From NCBI RefSeq assembly GCF_006517815.1, contig NZ_CP041198.1, positions 1,116,001-1,180,000 of the forward strand: a stretch of DNA of 64,000 bases, given 5' to 3'. Under the pieces are notes generated by a model that saw nothing but the letters and a program-made list of their open reading frames with translations, was not told the DNA's origin and searched no databases. The stretch comes from Pseudarthrobacter sp. NIBRBAC000502770 (GTDB taxonomy: Bacteria > Actinomycetota > Actinomycetes > Actinomycetales > Micrococcaceae). Shown one piece after another: positions 11,310-19,047 of the stretch (positions within the stretch are counted from its first letter, which is position 1; the number at the start of each line of letters is the position of its first letter). A program made the position numbers and the translations under genes.

Positions 11310-12302
11310 TCAGCCGAGCAGTCCGGGTACCACCAGCAGGGCGGTAGGCAGCGCCAGCAGGAGGATGCAGCCGGCCAGGACGGCGCTGCGGACAGCGGCA
11401 GGAAGCTGGGGCTGCGGCGTCAGGAGCCGGCTGACCCGGGAGGCAGCCGTCCGGACCGCATCCGAGCCCGGGCCGCCCGATGCCGCCTCAAGGCCCGAAA
11501 GGGCAAGGCTAGGGGACGACGGCCGGATGTCGCCGCCGCCGGCGTTGCCCGCCGAACCGCTGGCCACAATGGCGATGGCCTTGATGAGCGTCGCCTTGCT
11601 TTCCGTCCGAAGGGCGACGTCGTCGGCCAGCATCTCGATCAGCGAATTCACCGACTCCTGCGCAAGCCGGGTGGTGGGCAGCCAGGGGAGGGCCTGCCGC
11701 CAGGCCGCGAAGGCCCACAGGAGCAGGTGGTGCCGCTGGCTCAGGTGGGCGTTCTCGTGGATGAGGACGGCACGAAGCTCAGCCGGTTCAAGGGCAGCCA
11801 TCAGGCCATCCGACAGTACGGTGACCGAGCGGGCGCCTCCCGGAAGGCAGTAGGCAACGGGGGAATCGTGGCTGATGACCAGCGTGCCGGCGTCCTGGCC
11901 TGACGGGGAAGCCAGGATGGCGAGCAGTTCGCGGTGCCGGCGCCGCTGCCGCTGGATCTTGTAGTACGTCAGCAACAGGGTGAAGACCAAGTGGGCCGTG
12001 AGCAGGGCGGCAGCGGAGAGGGCAAAGATATGCCAGAACCCCAGCGCCGTGGTGGGGGCATTGAAGAGCACCATGCCGGCAAGGGCGCGCAGCCCTGCGA
12101 TGAGGTTGTCACCCACAGGTTCCAGGCCGTAGACCAGCATGGCGCCGATCATGGAGAGACCACCTGCGAGTGCGATCGCCTGCCACAGCAGCATGGCCGT
12201 GAAGGGCGACCTGGCCGGCCATTGTGCCCGTGACAGGAGGATTGGCACCGGCCACGCCAGGCTTATCGCAAGGACCGCCAGCAGGTATGAGGCCCAGAAC
12301 AT
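11310..12302 (-). CDS. M56 family membrane metallopeptidase (BlaR1/MecR1-type)
   Basis: A 330-residue integral membrane zinc protease. Several N-terminal helices (from residue 1, FWASYLLAVLAISLAW) are followed by a cytoplasmic catalytic domain with HENAH, an HExxH motif, at about residue 182, and the downstream zinc ligand in IEMLADDVAL. A final hydrophobic helix closes the protein. Unlike BlaR1 it has no extracellular beta-lactam sensor domain, so the signal is unknown. It lies 6 bases after the BlaI gene on the same strand. In this family the protease inactivates its partner repressor (established for BlaR1/BlaI); that it acts on the adjacent BlaI here is inference. Confidence 0.9.
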   Translation of the reverse strand: MFWASYLLAVLAISLAWPVPILLSRAQWPARSPFTAMLLWQAIALAGGLSMIGAMLVYGLEPVGDNLIAGLRALAGMVLFNAPTTALGFWHIFALSAAALLTAHLVFTLLLTYYKIQRQRRRHRELLAILASPSGQDAGTLVISHDSPVAYCLPGGARSVTVLSDGLMAALEPAELRAVLIHENAHLSQRHHLLLWAFAAWRQALPWLPTTRLAQESVNSLIEMLADDVALRTESKATLIKAIAIVASGSAGNAGGGDIRPSSPSLALSGLEAASGGPGSDAVRTAASRVSRLLTPQPQLPAAVRSAVLAGCILLLALPTALLVVPGLLG

Positions 12303-12308
12303 GGTGTG

Positions 12309-12692
12309 CTAGAGATGACCCAGCAGTTTGCGCAGCGTTTCGGCTTCACCTTCGGAGACAGACCCGATGAAGCGGGCCAGCACTGCCTCGCGGTCCGGGG
12401 CCGACCCAAGGACCTCATGCATGAGTTCGGCGGTGTGGTCTGCACGGCTGGACACTGCCTGGTACCGGTGCGGGCGGGTGCCGCGTTCGCGTTCGACCAG
12501 GCCCTTCTTTTCCAGGCGGGAAAGTACGGTAAGCACCGTGGTGACGGCGAGTTCCTTGCCTTCGTGGCCGGGGCCGCCCTGCGCCGCCGACGTGCGCGCC
12601 AACTGATCCCTCAGGGTATTGGCCGTAGCCGCTTCCTGGCCCGCCCAGAGCAGGTCCATCACTGCCCGTTCCAGTTCACCAAGACTAGCCAT
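12309..12692 (-). CDS. BlaI/MecI/CopY family transcriptional repressor
   Basis: A 127-residue winged-helix repressor. It starts MASLGELERAVMDLLW, the family N-terminus, with the recognition helix in LAVTTVLTVLSRLEKKGLV and a C-terminal dimerisation/cleavage region. ATG 12692 has AAAGGAAAAG upstream, and the open frame beyond it to 12758 is not family-like. It is co-transcribed with the M56 protease and divergent from cydA across 258 bases. That gap contains three matching palindromes, which are likely operators. In Mycobacterium tuberculosis a BlaI homologue regulates genes beyond beta-lactamase, so control of respiration is plausible. Confidence 0.92.
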   Translation of the reverse strand: MASLGELERAVMDLLWAGQEAATANTLRDQLARTSAAQGGPGHEGKELAVTTVLTVLSRLEKKGLVERERGTRPHRYQAVSSRADHTAELMHEVLGSAPDREAVLARFIGSVSEGEAETLRKLLGHL

Positions 12693-12793
12693 GTCACTTT
12701 TCCTTTTATTTCCCCGCACCGTGCGCTGTGCGCCAGGTGACGTCACGCGGTTGTTCAACTACACAACTAAATTTACCCCGAAAACGCCGAACC

Positions 12794-12810
12794 TTCTACA
12801 TCGGGTAGAA
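12794..12810. promoter_or_regulatory. Candidate BlaI operator 1
   Basis: TTCTACATCGGGTAGAA: inverted repeat TTCTAC-N5-GTAGAA, the same core as the two sites near cydA. It lies between the divergent BlaI and cydA starts, about 100 bases upstream of the BlaI ATG and about 87 bases (centre to centre) from site 2. It could serve autoregulation or DNA looping. Confidence 0.7.
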
Positions 12811-12880
12811 CATCTGGCGCGCCGCGCCCAGGTGGGCGATCCTAGGGAGGACGGTTGGTTTTCGTCCGCCGCCGACCATG

Positions 12881-12897
12881 TTCTACACTTTGTAGAA
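12881..12897. promoter_or_regulatory. Candidate BlaI operator 2
   Basis: TTCTACACTTTGTAGAA: 7-bp arms TTCTACA/TGTAGAA around 3 bases. It sits just upstream of TACAGT (12900-12905), a possible cydA -10 element, so binding would block the promoter. Confidence 0.75.
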
Positions 12898-12904
12898 GTT
12901 ACAG

Positions 12905-12921
12905 TTCTACGAAGCGTAGAA
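12905..12921. promoter_or_regulatory. Candidate BlaI operator 3
   Basis: TTCTACGAAGCGTAGAA: 7-bp arms TTCTACG/CGTAGAA around 3 bases. Its centre is 24 bases from that of site 2 and it covers the likely cydA transcription start. The ATG of cydA is 30 bases downstream. Confidence 0.75.
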
Positions 12922-12950
12922 AAATGCATTGGCTAACAGTAGGGACTGCC

Positions 12951-14543
12951 ATGGACGCCTTGGAAATCGCACGCTGGCAATTCGGCATCACCACCGTCTA
13001 CCACTTCATGATGGTGCCGCTGACCATCGGCCTGGGCCTGGTGGTCGCCGTGATCCAGACGGCCTGGTACCGCACCGGCAAGCCGGAGTACCTGCGCATG
13101 ACCAAATTCTGGGGAAAGCTTTTCCTCATCAACTTCATCATGGGCGTTGCCACCGGCATTGTGCAGGAGTTCCAGTTCGGCATGGCCTGGAGCGAGTACA
13201 GCCGCTTCGTCGGTGACGTCTTCGGCGCCCCGCTGGCCCTCGAGGCCCTCCTGGCCTTCTTCGTCGAGTCCACCTTCCTGGGCCTGTGGATCTTCGGGTG
13301 GAAGCAGCTCAAGCCCGCCATCCACCTTGCCTGCCTCTGGGTGGCCGTCATCGGCTCGGCGCTGTCCGCCTACTTCATCATCGTGGCCAACAGCTGGATG
13401 CAGCACCCGGTGGGCGTGGAAATGATCAACGGCCGGCCCGTCATGACCGACGCCTGGGCCGTGTTCACCAACAACACCGCCCTGGTTGCCGTACCGCACA
13501 CCCTGTTCGGCGCCCTCGCCGTGGCGGGCGGCTTCCTCCTGGGCATCGCCTGGTACCACCTGTGGCGGAGGCGGCACGACGGCGTCGACACCGTAGGCGC
13601 CGACGGCCGGATCATCCCCGGCGAAGACGCCAGCATTTCCGGCCGCGACCGGGCCGACTACAAGGTGTGGATCCGGTCCCTGCGCATCGGTGCAGTGGTG
13701 GCCATGATCTCCTTTGCCGGCACCGCCGTCACCGGTGACCTGCAGGGCAAGCTCATGTTCCAGCAGCAGCCCATGAAAATGGCCGCAGCAGAGGCCGCGT
13801 GCCACGACGGCACCGGCTTCTCCGTCCTGAGCGTCGGCAACGTGGGCTCGAAGAACTGCGACGACGTCGTGGCAGTGATCGAGGTCCCCGGCATCCTTTC
13901 CTTCCTGGCCAAGGGTGACTTCACCACCGAGGTGAAGGGCGTCAACAGCCTGCTGCCCGAGTACAAGGAAAAGTACGGAACCACGCTCCCGGACAACCCG
14001 ATCTACGGGGACCGCGCCGGCCAGGAGATCCAGTACGTACCCGTCATGGAAGTCACCTACTGGGGCTTCCGGATGATGATCGGCTTCGGCGGCCTCGCGG
14101 CGCTGGCTGCGCTGGTGGCTCTCTGGATAACCCGCAAGGGGACGGTACCGGAATCCCGGTGGCTGATGCGCCTGGCAGTGTTTGGCATCCTTGCACCCTT
14201 CGGTGCCAACGCCGCCGGCTGGATCTTCACCGAGATGGGCCGCCAGCCGTTCGTCGTGGCACCCAATCCCGACCCGAGCGGCATCGACCAGGTGTTCATG
14301 TTCACCGCCGCCGCCGTATCACCCGGTGTGTCCGCAGGGGAGCTGATCGCCTCGCTGGTGGCCCTGACCGCCGTCTACGCCGTCCTGCTGGTGGTGGAAG
14401 TAAAACTGCTGGTCAAGTACATCCGCGGCGGCGTGGTCTCCGCTATGCCGGAACTCGGCCACGCTCCGGTGGACGAGGATGAAACCCCGGGCCCCGGCGG
14501 CGGCCCCAAGCCCGCCGACGACGTCCTGGCCTTCGCCTACTAG
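12951..14543 (+). CDS. cydA: Cytochrome bd ubiquinol/menaquinol oxidase subunit I
   Basis: A 530-residue membrane subunit of the high-affinity terminal oxidase, which oxidises quinol and reduces O2 without pumping protons. The N-terminal heme-ligand region ITTVYHFMMVPLTIG (His near residue 18) and the C-terminal GWIFTEMGRQPF are diagnostic. About nine hydrophobic segments are present, with the quinol loop between the first and second halves. ATG 12951 follows AGGGA at 12941. The frame is open upstream to 12855 across the palindromes, but that part is not protein-like. First gene of cydA-cydB-cydDC, with three operator-like palindromes upstream. Confidence 0.97.
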   Translation: MDALEIARWQFGITTVYHFMMVPLTIGLGLVVAVIQTAWYRTGKPEYLRMTKFWGKLFLINFIMGVATGIVQEFQFGMAWSEYSRFVGDVFGAPLALEALLAFFVESTFLGLWIFGWKQLKPAIHLACLWVAVIGSALSAYFIIVANSWMQHPVGVEMINGRPVMTDAWAVFTNNTALVAVPHTLFGALAVAGGFLLGIAWYHLWRRRHDGVDTVGADGRIIPGEDASISGRDRADYKVWIRSLRIGAVVAMISFAGTAVTGDLQGKLMFQQQPMKMAAAEAACHDGTGFSVLSVGNVGSKNCDDVVAVIEVPGILSFLAKGDFTTEVKGVNSLLPEYKEKYGTTLPDNPIYGDRAGQEIQYVPVMEVTYWGFRMMIGFGGLAALAALVALWITRKGTVPESRWLMRLAVFGILAPFGANAAGWIFTEMGRQPFVVAPNPDPSGIDQVFMFTAAAVSPGVSAGELIASLVALTAVYAVLLVVEVKLLVKYIRGGVVSAMPELGHAPVDEDETPGPGGGPKPADDVLAFAY

Positions 14544-14558
14544 CAGAGGAAACACACA

Positions 14559-15608
14559 ATGGAACTGCTGCCCACCATCTGGTTCATCGCCATTGCGGTG
14601 CTGTGGACCGGCTACCTCTTCCTCGAAGGTTTCGACCTGGGCGTAGGGATGCTGATGAAGCTCTTCGCCCGCAACAACACCGAACGCCGCGTTCTCCTGA
14701 ACACCATTGGGCCCGTCTGGGACGGCAACGAGGTGTGGCTGCTGACTGCCGGCGGCGCCACCTTCGCGGCCTTTCCGCTTTGGTACGCGTCCTTGTTCTC
14801 CGCGCTCTACCTCCCCCTCCTGGTGGTCCTGCTCGCCCTGATCTTCCGCGCGGTGGCGTTCGAGTACCGCGGCAAGGTGGACACCGACAGCTGGCGGAAC
14901 CGCTGGGACTGGGCCATCGCGCTGGGTTCCTTCTTCGCCGCATTCGGCGTCGGCGCCGCCTTGGCCCTTACCACCACCGGGCTGCCGCTGAACGCCAACG
15001 GTGACCGCGAAGGCGGCCCCATGGCCTGGTTCAGCGGGTACGCCCTCCTTGGCGGCGCGGCAGTGGTGGGCTTCTCGCTCCTCCATGCGCTGGCATTCCT
15101 GGCACTGAAGACGGACGGGGATGTCCGGCACCGTGCCCGCCAGTGGTTCGTGCGGCTCCTGCCGGTCCTGCTGCTGCCCATCGCCGCATGGGCGCTGGCC
15201 ATCCAGTTCATGGACGGGAAGCCCTGGACCTGGGCCGCCGTCGTCCTGGCCGTCGCCGCCGCCATCACTGCCTGGCTGCTGGCCCGGAAGGGCGCTGAAG
15301 GCAGGGCCTTCCTGGCCCTCGGCGGCTTCCTGGTGCTGGGCACGGCATCCATCTTTGGTGCGGTCTTCCCCGTGGTGCTGCCCTCCACGCTGGACAGCGC
15401 CTTCGACCTCACTGTCTCCAACGCATCCTCCTCGGACTACACGCTGGGGCTGATGAGCATCGTGGCGGCATTCGGCCTTCCCCTGGTGATTGCGTACCAG
15501 GCATGGACCTACTGGGTGTTCCGCCGCCGGGTAAGCACCGCGCACATCCCGGAAGCCCACAGCTTCCTCCCGGCGGTCGCTGCCAGGGCCTTCACCACCA
15601 AGGGCTGA
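14559..15608 (+). CDS. cydB: Cytochrome bd oxidase subunit II
   Basis: The partner membrane subunit, 349 residues with eight to nine helices. The N-terminal LFLEGFDLGVGML and the GPVWDGNEVWLL motif near residue 55 are typical of CydB. It starts 15 bases after cydA and ends one base before the cydDC start, so the three form one operon. Length and motifs are normal. Confidence 0.97.
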   Translation: MELLPTIWFIAIAVLWTGYLFLEGFDLGVGMLMKLFARNNTERRVLLNTIGPVWDGNEVWLLTAGGATFAAFPLWYASLFSALYLPLLVVLLALIFRAVAFEYRGKVDTDSWRNRWDWAIALGSFFAAFGVGAALALTTTGLPLNANGDREGGPMAWFSGYALLGGAAVVGFSLLHALAFLALKTDGDVRHRARQWFVRLLPVLLLPIAAWALAIQFMDGKPWTWAAVVLAVAAAITAWLLARKGAEGRAFLALGGFLVLGTASIFGAVFPVVLPSTLDSAFDLTVSNASSSDYTLGLMSIVAAFGLPLVIAYQAWTYWVFRRRVSTAHIPEAHSFLPAVAARAFTTKG

Positions 15609-15609
15609 C

Positions 15610-18600
15610 GTGCGGCCAACATTTCCCGCCGGTCCGTCCACCCGCTCGGCAATCTACTGGCTGGGACTCCTGGCGGCGCTCAAGGCCCTGTCCCTGGTCC
15701 TGATCGGCCAGGCGGTGGCATCGGTCCTGGCCGGACTCGTCGCCGGGAACCCGGCCTGGGGGAGCCAACTGACTGCCGGACTCGCCGGCGTCGTGCTCCG
15801 GTCCCTGACCGTTTGGGGCCAGGCCGTCGCTGCCCGCCGCGCTGCCCTGGGCGTGAAGGAGGAACTGCGCGCCGAACTGCTGGAGCGGGCCCTGCGCACG
15901 GGTGTGCGCGGATCCGGCCCGGGCGACGGCGGGCTGGCGGTCCTTGCCACCCGCGGCCTGGACGCCCTGGACAGCTACTACACCCAGTTCCTTCCCGCAC
16001 TGGTCAACTGCGCCGCCGTTCCGCTGCTGCTGGGGGCCCGGATCCTCTTCGCGGACTGGGTCAGCGCGCTGGTGATCGTGCTGACAGTTCCGCTGATCCC
16101 GGTGTTCATGGTGCTGATCGGCAGGTACACCGAGGACAGCGTGCGGGAAGCCCAGGCCACCCTGGCGCGGCTGTCGGCGCACATGCTGGAGCTGGCCAAG
16201 GGCCTGCCGGTCCTGGTGGGGCTGGGACGTGCCACCGCCCAGCGGAAGGCCCTTGAGGAGATCTCGGAGGAGTACCGCTCCCGCACCATGGGCACCCTTC
16301 GCACTGCTTTCCTGTCCGCCCTGGCCCTGGAGCTCATCGCGACCATCTCGGTGGCAGTGGTGGCCGTCTTCATCGGTGTGCGGCTGGTGCATGGCGACAT
16401 GCCGCTGGAAGCCGGCCTGCTGGCCCTCCTCCTGGCACCTGACTGCTACCTTCCGCTGCGGGAACTCGGCACCGCCCACCACGCCAGCGACGACGGCAGG
16501 GTCGCACTCGCGGAAACGGCCGCCGTGACCAGTGCCGCCGAGCCGGCACCGCTCCCGGCCGCCAAGGCCGGCAGGCCCGGTGCCCCGCTGGAAGTCACCG
16601 GACTGACCGTGACATACGCCGGGCGGTCCGCAACCGCCGTCGGGCCCATGACGTTCACCGCGCCGCTGGACAGGATCACGGCATTGGACGGCCCCAGCGG
16701 CGCCGGCAAGAGCACCGTCCTGGGCGTCCTCGCCGGGATCATCGGCCACGGTGGCGGGACCAGCGTCACCGGCTCCATCAGCGGGCTTGACCGCCGCTCC
16801 GTGGCATGGGTGCCGCAGCACCCGGTCATGGTGGCCGGAACCGTCCTGGACGAGGTACTGCTGTACCTGTCGCCTGACTCCGGGCACGGCCCGGACCGGT
16901 TCGCCGATGAAGATGCCGCCCGCCGCTGCCTGGCACGTGCCGGAGCCGGGCACCTGGCCCCAAAGCACCAGGCGGAACTGAGCCCGGGTGAGCTGCGCCG
17001 CGTCGCACTGGCCCGCGGCCTGGCCAGGATCGAGGCCGGTGCCACCCTCCTGCTGCTCGACGAACCCACCGCGCACCTGGATGACGCGTCGGCCGTGATC
17101 GTGGAGGACGCCATCCGCCGGCTCCGCGGCCAGGTCACGGTGGTCCTGGTGGCCCACAACCAGCGCACGCGGCAGCTGGCGGACCTGCTGGTACCGGTGG
17201 CGCCTGCGGCCCGGACCCACACAACGGCCCGGCAGGACGACGCCGATGCCGCGTTGCTGCCTGCGGCCCCCGCCGGCGTCCCGCATGGAGCCAGCGCTGC
17301 AGACGGGGCGGCCACGGACCGCGCTTCGACGGACAACCCCGTCACGCGGAACCCGGCCGTACGTGCCGCTGAAAAGGCTGCCCCCGGGGCCTTCCGCCTG
17401 CTGGCAGCACTCCTGGCTCCGGTGCGGGGCAAGTTCGCGGCCGCCGCCTTCGTCGGCACCCTGGCGGCCCTCTTCGCCGTCGCGCTTTCCGGCCTGTCCG
17501 GCTGGCTCATCATCCGGGCGAGCGAACAACCGCCCATCCTGTACCTGTTGACCGCCATCGTCGGAGTCCGGTTCTTCGGCATCGGCCGGGCCGTGTCCCG
17601 CTACTGGGAGCGGCTGCTGCTGCACGACGCCGTGTTCGCCGCACTCACCCGGCTCCGCGGCCGGCTCTGGGAGTCGCTGAGCCGGCGTGCCCTCTCGCTG
17701 CGCCGGCTGCTGCAGGGCGGCAACGTTCTGGGTACGGTGATTGACGACGTCGATACCGTCCGGGACCTCCTGCCCCGGGTGGTCCTGCCGCCCGCCACCG
17801 CGCTGGCGGTGTCCGTCCTGGCCGTGGCCGCCACCGGCATCCTGGTACCGGATGCCCTTCCCGCCGTGGCCGGTGCGGCCGTCGGCGGCCTGCTGCTGGC
17901 GCCCGCCGCGGCCTTGTGGGGCGACCGCAAGTCCGCTGCCGCCGAGCAGTCCCTGCGCTCGGGCGTGCTGCGCCGCGTCACCGCTGCCCTCGATGCACGC
18001 GCGGAGCTGCACGCCAACGGCGTGGCACCACGCGTGCTCGAGGCGCTGCTGGCGGAAGACCGGGACGCCACCCGCGCTTCGCGGCGCTCCGCCTGGGCGG
18101 ACGGGCTGGGCCATGCCGTTGCCACAGCAGCCTGTGGGACGGCAGCCCTGGCTGCTGCCTGGCTGGCGGGGCCCGCAGTCCTCGCGGCCCAGGTGGCACC
18201 GGCGGCCGCCGCCGTGGTGGTCCTTCTCCTGCTTGCCCTGGTGGAACCCTACGCGGCGATGACGACGGCGGTGCGCCAGTACCCCGCCCTGCGGTCCGTC
18301 ATGCGCCGGGTGGGGGAGTCCGGCGCCCTGGCGGCCGGCAGCGAACCACGCGGGGGCCTGCAGCCCGTTTCCCGCCGGGACGGGGACACGCCGGGCGTTG
18401 AGCTCCTGGACCTGGCCGCGGAATGGCCGGGCGGCCCCCCGGTCTTCTCCGGCATCACTGCTGTGGCAGTTCCCGGGCGCTGGCTGGCGGTCACCGGACC
18501 GTCCGGCTCCGGCAAATCGACGTTGCTGTCGGTGCTGCTGGGCTTCCTGCCGCCGGCATCCGGACAGGTCCTGGTCACCGGCCGGGCAGCGTGGTGCCCG

Positions 18601-19047
18601 CAGGAGGCCCACCTGTTCGATTCCACGATCAGGGGAAACCTGCTGCTGGGACGGCCGATCGAGGACGGCCCGGCGCCGGCGTCCGACCGCGAGCTGGAGG
18701 CGGTGCTTGCCGCCGTCGGCCTTTCCGCGCTGGTGGGCAGGCTGCCAGCCGGGCTGGACACCCGCATCGGCCCCGGCGGCGCCTTCCTCAGCGGCGGCGA
18801 GCGCCAACGCCTGGCTGTGGCGCGGACCCTGCTGACGGGGGCGGAAGTGATCCTGCTCGATGAGCCCACCGCGCACCTGGACGCGGAGTCCGCGGCCACC
18901 ATGCTGGCGGACCTGCGCGCCGGACTGCGGGACCGCACCGTGGTGCTGGTGACCCACAACCCCGCCGACATCCAGGCCGGTGATGCCCGGCTGGAACTTT
19001 CGGAGCCGGCCGGACAGTCCTGGGGCTCCCTGGCCCCTTCCCGCTAA
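15610..19047 (+). CDS. cydDC: Fused CydD-CydC thiol reductant ABC exporter
   Basis: One 1145-residue chain carries two complete ABC half-transporters that are separate proteins (CydD, CydC) in many bacteria. The exporter supplies reductant needed for assembly of cytochrome bd. Half 1: membrane domain about 10-290, Walker A GPSGAGKST near 361, Walker B LLLLDEPTAHLD near 485. An Ala-rich linker spans about 530-590. Half 2: membrane domain about 600-900, Walker A GPSGSGKST near 962, signature LSGGERQRLAVAR near 1060, Walker B ILLDEPTAHLD. The first signature is the degenerate LSPGELRRVALAR, so the two ATP sites are asymmetric. GTG 15610 starts one base after the cydB stop. Confidence 0.95.
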   Translation: MRPTFPAGPSTRSAIYWLGLLAALKALSLVLIGQAVASVLAGLVAGNPAWGSQLTAGLAGVVLRSLTVWGQAVAARRAALGVKEELRAELLERALRTGVRGSGPGDGGLAVLATRGLDALDSYYTQFLPALVNCAAVPLLLGARILFADWVSALVIVLTVPLIPVFMVLIGRYTEDSVREAQATLARLSAHMLELAKGLPVLVGLGRATAQRKALEEISEEYRSRTMGTLRTAFLSALALELIATISVAVVAVFIGVRLVHGDMPLEAGLLALLLAPDCYLPLRELGTAHHASDDGRVALAETAAVTSAAEPAPLPAAKAGRPGAPLEVTGLTVTYAGRSATAVGPMTFTAPLDRITALDGPSGAGKSTVLGVLAGIIGHGGGTSVTGSISGLDRRSVAWVPQHPVMVAGTVLDEVLLYLSPDSGHGPDRFADEDAARRCLARAGAGHLAPKHQAELSPGELRRVALARGLARIEAGATLLLLDEPTAHLDDASAVIVEDAIRRLRGQVTVVLVAHNQRTRQLADLLVPVAPAARTHTTARQDDADAALLPAAPAGVPHGASAADGAATDRASTDNPVTRNPAVRAAEKAAPGAFRLLAALLAPVRGKFAAAAFVGTLAALFAVALSGLSGWLIIRASEQPPILYLLTAIVGVRFFGIGRAVSRYWERLLLHDAVFAALTRLRGRLWESLSRRALSLRRLLQGGNVLGTVIDDVDTVRDLLPRVVLPPATALAVSVLAVAATGILVPDALPAVAGAAVGGLLLAPAAALWGDRKSAAAEQSLRSGVLRRVTAALDARAELHANGVAPRVLEALLAEDRDATRASRRSAWADGLGHAVATAACGTAALAAAWLAGPAVLAAQVAPAAAAVVVLLLLALVEPYAAMTTAVRQYPALRSVMRRVGESGALAAGSEPRGGLQPVSRRDGDTPGVELLDLAAEWPGGPPVFSGITAVAVPGRWLAVTGPSGSGKSTLLSVLLGFLPPASGQVLVTGRAAWCPQEAHLFDSTIRGNLLLGRPIEDGPAPASDRELEAVLAAVGLSALVGRLPAGLDTRIGPGGAFLSGGERQRLAVARTLLTGAEVILLDEPTAHLDAESAATMLADLRAGLRDRTVVLVTHNPADIQAGDARLELSEPAGQSWGSLAPSR

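Follow-up and report, generated by a model that had tools for sequence, protein, structure and literature searches.

A BlaI repressor and a sensor-less BlaR1-like protease beside cydABDC as a probable switch for respiratory and haem genes

What does a BlaI-type repressor, paired with a membrane protease, do next to the genes of a cytochrome bd oxidase? The window, as we call the whole 64,000-nucleotide stretch of DNA that was analysed, places blaI (12309..12692, minus strand, ATG at 12692) and a protease gene (11310..12302, minus strand) directly divergent from cydA (12951..14543), cydB (14559..15608) and a gene for a CydDC-type ABC fusion (15610..19047), all three on the plus strand. The blaI ATG and the cydA start at 12951 bound an intergenic gap of 258 bases. 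The gene calls of an initial annotation of this DNA hold by their domain scores. BlaI, a BlaI/MecI-type winged-helix repressor of 127 aa, scores 74.7 bits against PF03965, above the gathering score of 22.6; cytochrome bd subunits I and II score 510.8 bits (PF01654) and 342.5 bits (PF02322); and the fusion, presumably cydDC, the ABC exporter for bd assembly, contains two ABC_tran stretches and ABC_membrane. When 29 loci of the genus were aligned, base conservation set in at about the blaI ATG. Judged by BlaI, the nearest named relatives are Pseudarthrobacter and Arthrobacter, and the best solved-structure match of BlaI is 2g9w (E 2.5e-15), which we take to be Rv1846c of Mycobacterium tuberculosis. 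In all 78 BlaI loci, blaI is followed on its own strand by an adjoining homologue of the protease.

The gap holds three exact copies of TTCTAC-N5-GTAGAA, as first annotated. Palindrome 1, TTCTACATCGGGTAGAA (12794..12810), is proximal to blaI and is likely its autoregulation site; palindromes 2, TTCTACACTTTGTAGAA (12881..12897), and 3, TTCTACGAAGCGTAGAA (12905..12921), form a pair proximal to cydA, 24 bp apart. With up to two mismatches allowed, these three are the only matches in the window, and shuffles of the window (n = 100) gave a mean of 0.23 and at most 2. Since no shuffle reached three, the palindromes are real and not due to chance. The base composition of the window predicts 4e-4 exact matches per 64 kb and 0.03 per genome; the whole genome (4.48 Mb) has 8, as against 1 for the reversed control. 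Copies with exactly one mismatch number 7, below the 14 of the reversed control, so the motif is sharp. A footprint of the genus (29 of 30 loci, one with a long gap having been dropped) showed invariant arms and a gap between blaI and cydA that is otherwise mostly variable. The consensus of 461 distinct contexts, some of them from closely related genomes, is TTCTAC-(A/G)N3(T/C)-GTAGAA, with A after TAC in 46% and A or T favoured two bases outside the palindrome. The BlaI/MecI operator is TACA-N2-TGTA, and the consensus found here is one base wider. The suggestion that palindromes 2 and 3 both fit a TACA/TGTA pattern was half right: palindrome 2 does (TACA-CTT-TGTA), palindrome 3 does not (TACG...CGTA).

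Within 700 bp, each of the 80 named Arthrobacter-group loci has one or more exact copies, three in 61 loci, two in 15 and one in 4, and 72 of the 137 neighbouring pairs in these loci are spaced 23-25 bp, a little over two helical turns. The cydA -10 that the initial annotation saw under the pair (TACAGT, 12900-12905) did not stand: conservation of its own bases reaches at most 60-85% in the 29 genus loci, as against the invariant arms, and no promoter was detected by a scan for the sigma-70 consensus, which is a crude test in this group. Between palindrome 1 and blaI lies a second conserved block (12758-12780, around TAAATTTACC at 12768-12777), which may be the minus-strand -10 region of blaI.

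The host genome carries five further exact copies. One lies between hmp, which encodes flavohaemoglobin (Globin/FAD/NAD), and an NsrR-like Rrf2 gene. Another precedes hemQ (HemQ_actino) in a region with hemE (URO-D), hemY, hemC (Porphobil_deam) and hemD (HEM4). The third is between yceI (YceI) and a cluster of histidine phosphatase, TlpA and ResB (His_Phos_1, AhpC-TSA, ResB); TlpA-ResB clusters serve cytochrome-c maturation. The fourth is just before a pyridoxamine-oxidase-like, flavin-type gene (Pyridox_ox_2), divergent from a permease-like gene, and the fifth is before a gene for a small membrane protein (L009:3570-3959). Neighbours were named by Pfam and NCBIfam, except hemY (Amino_oxidase), which was assigned by reading. 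The pyridoxamine-oxidase-like gene (L006:3567-4000; C2, about 359 kb) appears split over two frames, apparently by a frameshift or an assembly error. The small membrane protein had no family match in Pfam or NCBIfam and recurs behind the palindrome in the host and six other genomes.

If the palindrome is a BlaI site, it should go with BlaI in relatives that keep the gene pair, and it does. Among 149 genomes of the family, at least two exact copies are present in 123 of the 127 with a BlaI orthologue (E<=1e-20) and in none of the 22 without (Fisher p 1.3e-22, from counts that ignore phylogeny); at least one copy is present in 126 of the 127, and a single copy in 6 of the 22. At the sequence level, 77 of the 78 blaI loci have an exact copy upstream of blaI, and at the remaining locus a copy with one mismatch lies at cydA. 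In a set of 59 relatives, all 37 same-genus genomes have 3-9 sites, and of the 22 from other families one has a site (G056), upstream of its blaI. The same holds within genera. In g27, a single site lies in the blaI-cydA gap of each of the two genomes that have BlaI, and the five that lack BlaI have no site. In g35, BlaI is present in two genomes, of which one has an exact site and the second a copy with one mismatch; the five that lack BlaI have none. In g55, which belongs to another family, three of three genomes with BlaI have two exact sites each, and sites were found in none of eight without BlaI (seven) or with only a distant BlaI (one), although the g55 genomes without BlaI carry a different type of cydA, which counts against this contrast. 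A separate cydDC homologue occurs in the two g55 genomes read (G307 and G387), and an exact palindrome of its own precedes its start by 16 bp.

The sites could follow cydA rather than BlaI, but genomes in which the two are dissociated point to BlaI. All seven family genomes with BlaI and no cydA match keep 3-15 sites. Eleven have a full cydA and no BlaI match: ten of these have no exact site and one (G116) has a single one, and no copy with up to two mismatches was found in the cydA upstream regions of ten of them (all but G181). Where blaI and cydA are unlinked, with cydA on another contig (G062, G092, G202 and G166; the second cydA of G202 lay outside this reading), there is one copy at blaI and two at cydA in four of four cases. 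Outside the host's family, in f19, where 11 of the 13 genomes with a BlaI match were read (L101, L298-L307), exact copies lie upstream of blaI in 10 of 11 loci, and L306 has a one-mismatch copy. G581, also outside the host's family, has an exact copy upstream of blaI. In eight more distant BlaI loci (L310-L317), the core is full or has one change in L310, L311, L312 and L315, and is absent from the other four; L315, an f45 locus, reads TACTAC-N5-GTAGTA, a CTAC-N5-GTAG core with altered flanks.

There are exceptions. G041 has a blaI-protease-cydA locus with no recognisable N5 site. G027, one of the 37 same-genus genomes, has three exact sites and no BlaI match in an assembly that is 68% complete. 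G116 and G204 lack BlaI and have one exact site each, that of G116 beside yceI homologues. The four genomes of genus g32 have only a distant BlaI, and in the two of them that were read cydA has an exact site. G147 and g32 were considered as breaks in the BlaI-site link and then dropped, as near copies of the palindrome were found; in G068 of g32 (L153) a 35%-identical blaI, away from cydA, has a two-mismatch copy 62 bp upstream. The link between BlaI and the palindrome, which was first drawn from proximity and motif, has gained strong comparative support, and we regard TTCTAC-N5-GTAGAA as the probable BlaI site.

We then considered which genes lie behind the palindrome elsewhere. Sites away from blaI and cydA were read in 16 of the 149 family genomes, 68 sites in all: 5 in the host, 45 in 12 genera, 13 in G069, 4 in G082 and 1 in G062. 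For G069, which has 15 sites, one is at blaI and C53 was left out. By first gene or operon, genes of haem, cytochromes, oxidase assembly, copper or NO account for 38 of the 68, a raw count that is inflated and should be taken as an upper reading, because at sites between divergent genes the respiratory neighbour was chosen where present (sdhC in L140 and SURF1 in L139, for example). These 38 comprise hemQ (11), flavohaemoglobin (7), cytochrome-c maturation (5), SufR/ABC-ctaA (4, with ctaA downstream of the ABC gene confirmed, as COX15-CtaA, in L136 only), copC (3), hemE (2), ctaC (2), and one each of ctaB, SURF1, sdhC and ctaG-copD. A further 18 precede four recurrent, poorly known families: the small membrane protein (7), a multi-TM protein (5, followed by copC in 3), a PNPOx-like protein (4) and a membrane protein of 115-117 aa (2). 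The other 12 have no obvious respiratory neighbour; they are at isocitrate lyase, CarD/lipoprotein, sucC, ppk2, two universal stress proteins, a Crp-like regulator and five unclear or unrelated genes. The initial annotation, which saw a switch for the bd oxidase, was too narrow: a wider set of haem, respiration and NO genes is marked.

Reference genes were named by Pfam and NCBIfam, and other loci were assigned to these references by tblastn. Of the 45 loci, 12 had no match to the reference proteins (L175, L176, L180, L184, L191, L192, L196, L199, L207-L209 and L217); Pfam named five of these (L192, L196, L199, L208 and L209), L184 was named by reading, and the rest are nameless. No family name was found for the small membrane protein of L175 in Pfam or NCBIfam, for L180 in Pfam, or for the multi-TM protein of L210 in NCBIfam. 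The 115-117-aa membrane proteins (L175:2030-2374, L180:2548-2898 and an ORF at about L334:2551) look alike by eye and immediately follow the palindrome in three genomes, which come from two families, those of L175 and L180 having no Pfam match; it is possible that they are an unrecognised respiratory or haem factor. In G073 the palindrome lies about 130 bp before the gene of the Crp-like regulator, named by reading (L184:2584-3258).

Genus g33 has no close cydA, and six of its genomes have 15, 13, 13, 9, 9 and 3 copies. G069 (L133-L145), the one genome of this genus that was read, has no cydA match and has copies at ctaC, ctaB, SURF1, sdhC, ctaG and haem genes, so the switch there appears to run the haem-copper oxidase branch instead. 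This is an apparent case of regulon takeover or expansion.

How might such a set of genes be opened? The second protein of the pair is a 330-aa membrane zinc protease with HENAH at residues 182-186. The initial annotation called it M56; its score for that family is 22.5 bits, below the cut-off of 31, and its best score is for M48 (37.4 bits, cut-off 20.3), but the transmembrane and protease part of BlaR1 ranks first among the matches to its predicted fold, which has the transmembrane helices and gluzincin HExxH...E of this group. As the annotation had noted, an extracellular sensor domain is lacking: the chain ends at residue 330 with its last helix, with no C-terminal penicillin-binding domain, and 30 aligned homologues span 286-354 aa. 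Residues H182, E183, H186 and E223 are invariant in 30 of 30 homologues. In BlaI, Phe108 is invariant in two alignments (22 of 22 and 34 of 34), and an excerpt of PMC9834060 places the cleavage of S. aureus BlaI at Asn101/Phe102.

Starting from the motif, its conservation, its dependence on BlaI and the adjoining genes, we infer BlaI binding, repression rather than activation, and proteolysis; repression is on this footing because no promoter was placed. BlaI dimers would bind TTCTAC-N5-GTAGAA and repress blaI-protease and cydABDC, as well as unlinked haem, cytochrome, copper and NO-detoxification genes. On a disturbance of respiration or of the haem supply at the membrane, the BlaR1-like protease would cleave BlaI near Phe108, and the regulon would open, releasing the backup oxidase, haem completion (hemQ), cytochrome-c maturation and flavohaemoglobin, and in some genera haem-copper oxidase subunits and assembly factors. 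That BlaI represses a respiratory and haem regulon and that the sensor-less protease relieves this repression is, in our judgement, quite probable. The proteolytic step and its signal are read from the conservation of the gene pair in all 78 loci and from the conserved residues. The signal is the least certain part. We favour, tentatively and with more doubt than confidence, the state of haem or of the respiratory chain, since haem, cytochromes, copper and NO are common to the targets and since M. tuberculosis blaR was scored essential when hemin or haemoglobin was the iron source and non-essential on the other sources in the table (PMC7058343, in part). An excerpt of PMC5148154 calls Rv1845c essential in the wild type generally, which weakens the haem-specific reading.

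As inverted repeats between genes, the palindromes might also be terminators or a mobile repeat. We found no terminator-like site in 12600-13000, spacer and flanks vary over the 461 contexts, and the genome has only 8 copies, with one-mismatch copies no more numerous than in the reversed control; we rejected this explanation as having practically no chance of being true. A different respiratory, NO or haem regulator, NsrR-, Rex- or HrrA-like for example, could own the palindromes, with blaI merely one of its targets. The Rrf2/NsrR-like gene beside hmp fits this idea, as do the exact sites in G027, G116, G204 and g32, which lack a close BlaI, and the resemblance of the targets to those of the haem-responsive HrrSA of Corynebacterium glutamicum (an excerpt of PMC7337898). 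Yet the presence of two or more sites goes with BlaI and not with cydA (a comparison made for cydA, not for hmp or hemQ), an unlinked blaI keeps its site in every case, the diverged BlaI of L153 has a diverged copy upstream, and the f45 locus retains the core with altered flanks. Another owner of the sites is quite unlikely.

The pair could instead answer penicillins, with the respiratory genes as secondary targets. The family names suggest this, and mycobacterial BlaI is described as a blaC repressor in an excerpt of PMC12565901. But a protease that ends at residue 330 has no penicillin sensor, and no beta-lactamase was recognised among the named neighbours of the 68 sites, several neighbours being nameless; classical beta-lactam sensing seems highly improbable. 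Finally, BlaI may bind the palindromes while the protease acts elsewhere, and BlaI be relieved by a ligand or by autoregulation. A protease that passes the M48 but not the M56 cut-off and has no sensor domain would suit this. Its constant place beside blaI, its invariant H182, E183, H186 and E223, the first rank of BlaR1 by fold and the invariant F108 of BlaI argue for a working pair instead, and we think relief without the protease improbable, though the least so of these four alternatives.

The proposed BlaI-protease switch has partial precedents. Staphylococcal operators are TAC-N4-GTA, so the half-sites here are one base further apart. The pair resembles S. aureus BlaR1/BlaI and MecR1/MecI in combining a repressor with a BlaR1-like membrane zinc protease and in the Phe at the likely cleavage position; unlike BlaR1 and MecR1, the host protease lacks the extracellular penicillin-binding sensor, and the neighbouring genes differ. 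It also resembles BlaI/BlaR (Rv1846c/Rv1845c) of M. tuberculosis, presumably the source of the nearest solved structure, with a stated link to cytochrome bd and a BlaR without sensor. According to excerpts of PMC5473688, which cites Sala 2009, M. tuberculosis BlaI binds the cytochrome bd and ATP-synthase promoters, and mycobacterial BlaR has no sensor domain; excerpts of other papers report that BlaI shifts the Rv1303-atp promoter (PMC12565901), support its link to ATP synthase (PMC5874750 and PMC8265638) and place blaI in the IdeR regulon (PMC7924339). On these statements, a link between BlaI and respiration is already known in one genus. The difference, judged by gene targets and descriptions and not by operator motif, is that here blaI-protease is directly divergent from cydABDC with no recognised beta-lactamase neighbour, and that the sites gather mainly at genes for haem, cytochrome-c maturation and copper and at hmp.

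Among the functional analogues that we found, HrrSA of C. glutamicum comes closest. This two-component system activates oxidases and represses haem synthesis, and its targets include hemE, hemY, hemQ, ctaA, ctaB, ctaC, sdhC and cydAB (PMC7337898, in part). The targets overlap, whereas here the regulator is a repressor/protease pair; neither histidine kinase nor response-regulator domains were found in BlaI and the protease at E <= 0.001. A literature search for a BlaI link to cytochrome bd or haem gave, among the matches listed, mycobacteria only and none for Arthrobacter-type bacteria, a weak absence as subscription journals were mostly outside its scope; nor were the operator, the divergent blaI-protease/cydABDC arrangement or the haem-cytochrome-NO set found among the matches listed, and those listed for the motif letters were unrelated. 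What appears new here is the operator, the arrangement and the breadth.

With likely BlaI sites before haem, cytochrome and NO genes in many relatives, the module beside the backup oxidase seems to run respiration in the host. This gives sensor-less actinobacterial BlaI/BlaR pairs, hard to explain so far, a concrete and testable role, in which the choice of terminal oxidase would be set together with the supply of haem and cytochromes. A 12-base operator and a list of genes are thereby defined in soil bacteria amenable to deletions and reporters, and the scattered mycobacterial observations on cytochrome bd, ATP synthase and haem iron can be placed in a common frame.

A bolder reading, which we consider rather unlikely, is that the sensor-less protease itself detects, within the membrane, the status of haem, quinone or the oxidase, and that actinobacterial BlaI/BlaR originally matched haem and cytochrome supply to the respiratory chain, penicillin sensing being a later development or a side branch. 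For such a detector we cite Gln41, which never varies in two sets of homologues (30 of 30 and 34 of 34), and His104, which is constant in the first of these sets (30 of 30). As a universal sensor residue His104 was rejected: it is Tyr in four f19 homologues (L300, L303, L305 and L306) and is replaced by other residues in ten more distant ones, the set L308-L317. Because it is replaced outside the 30 homologues, we keep it only as a lead. The BlaR1-like protease of two f36 genomes (L310 and L311) carries a long His/Cys insert before an AYCVPG motif.
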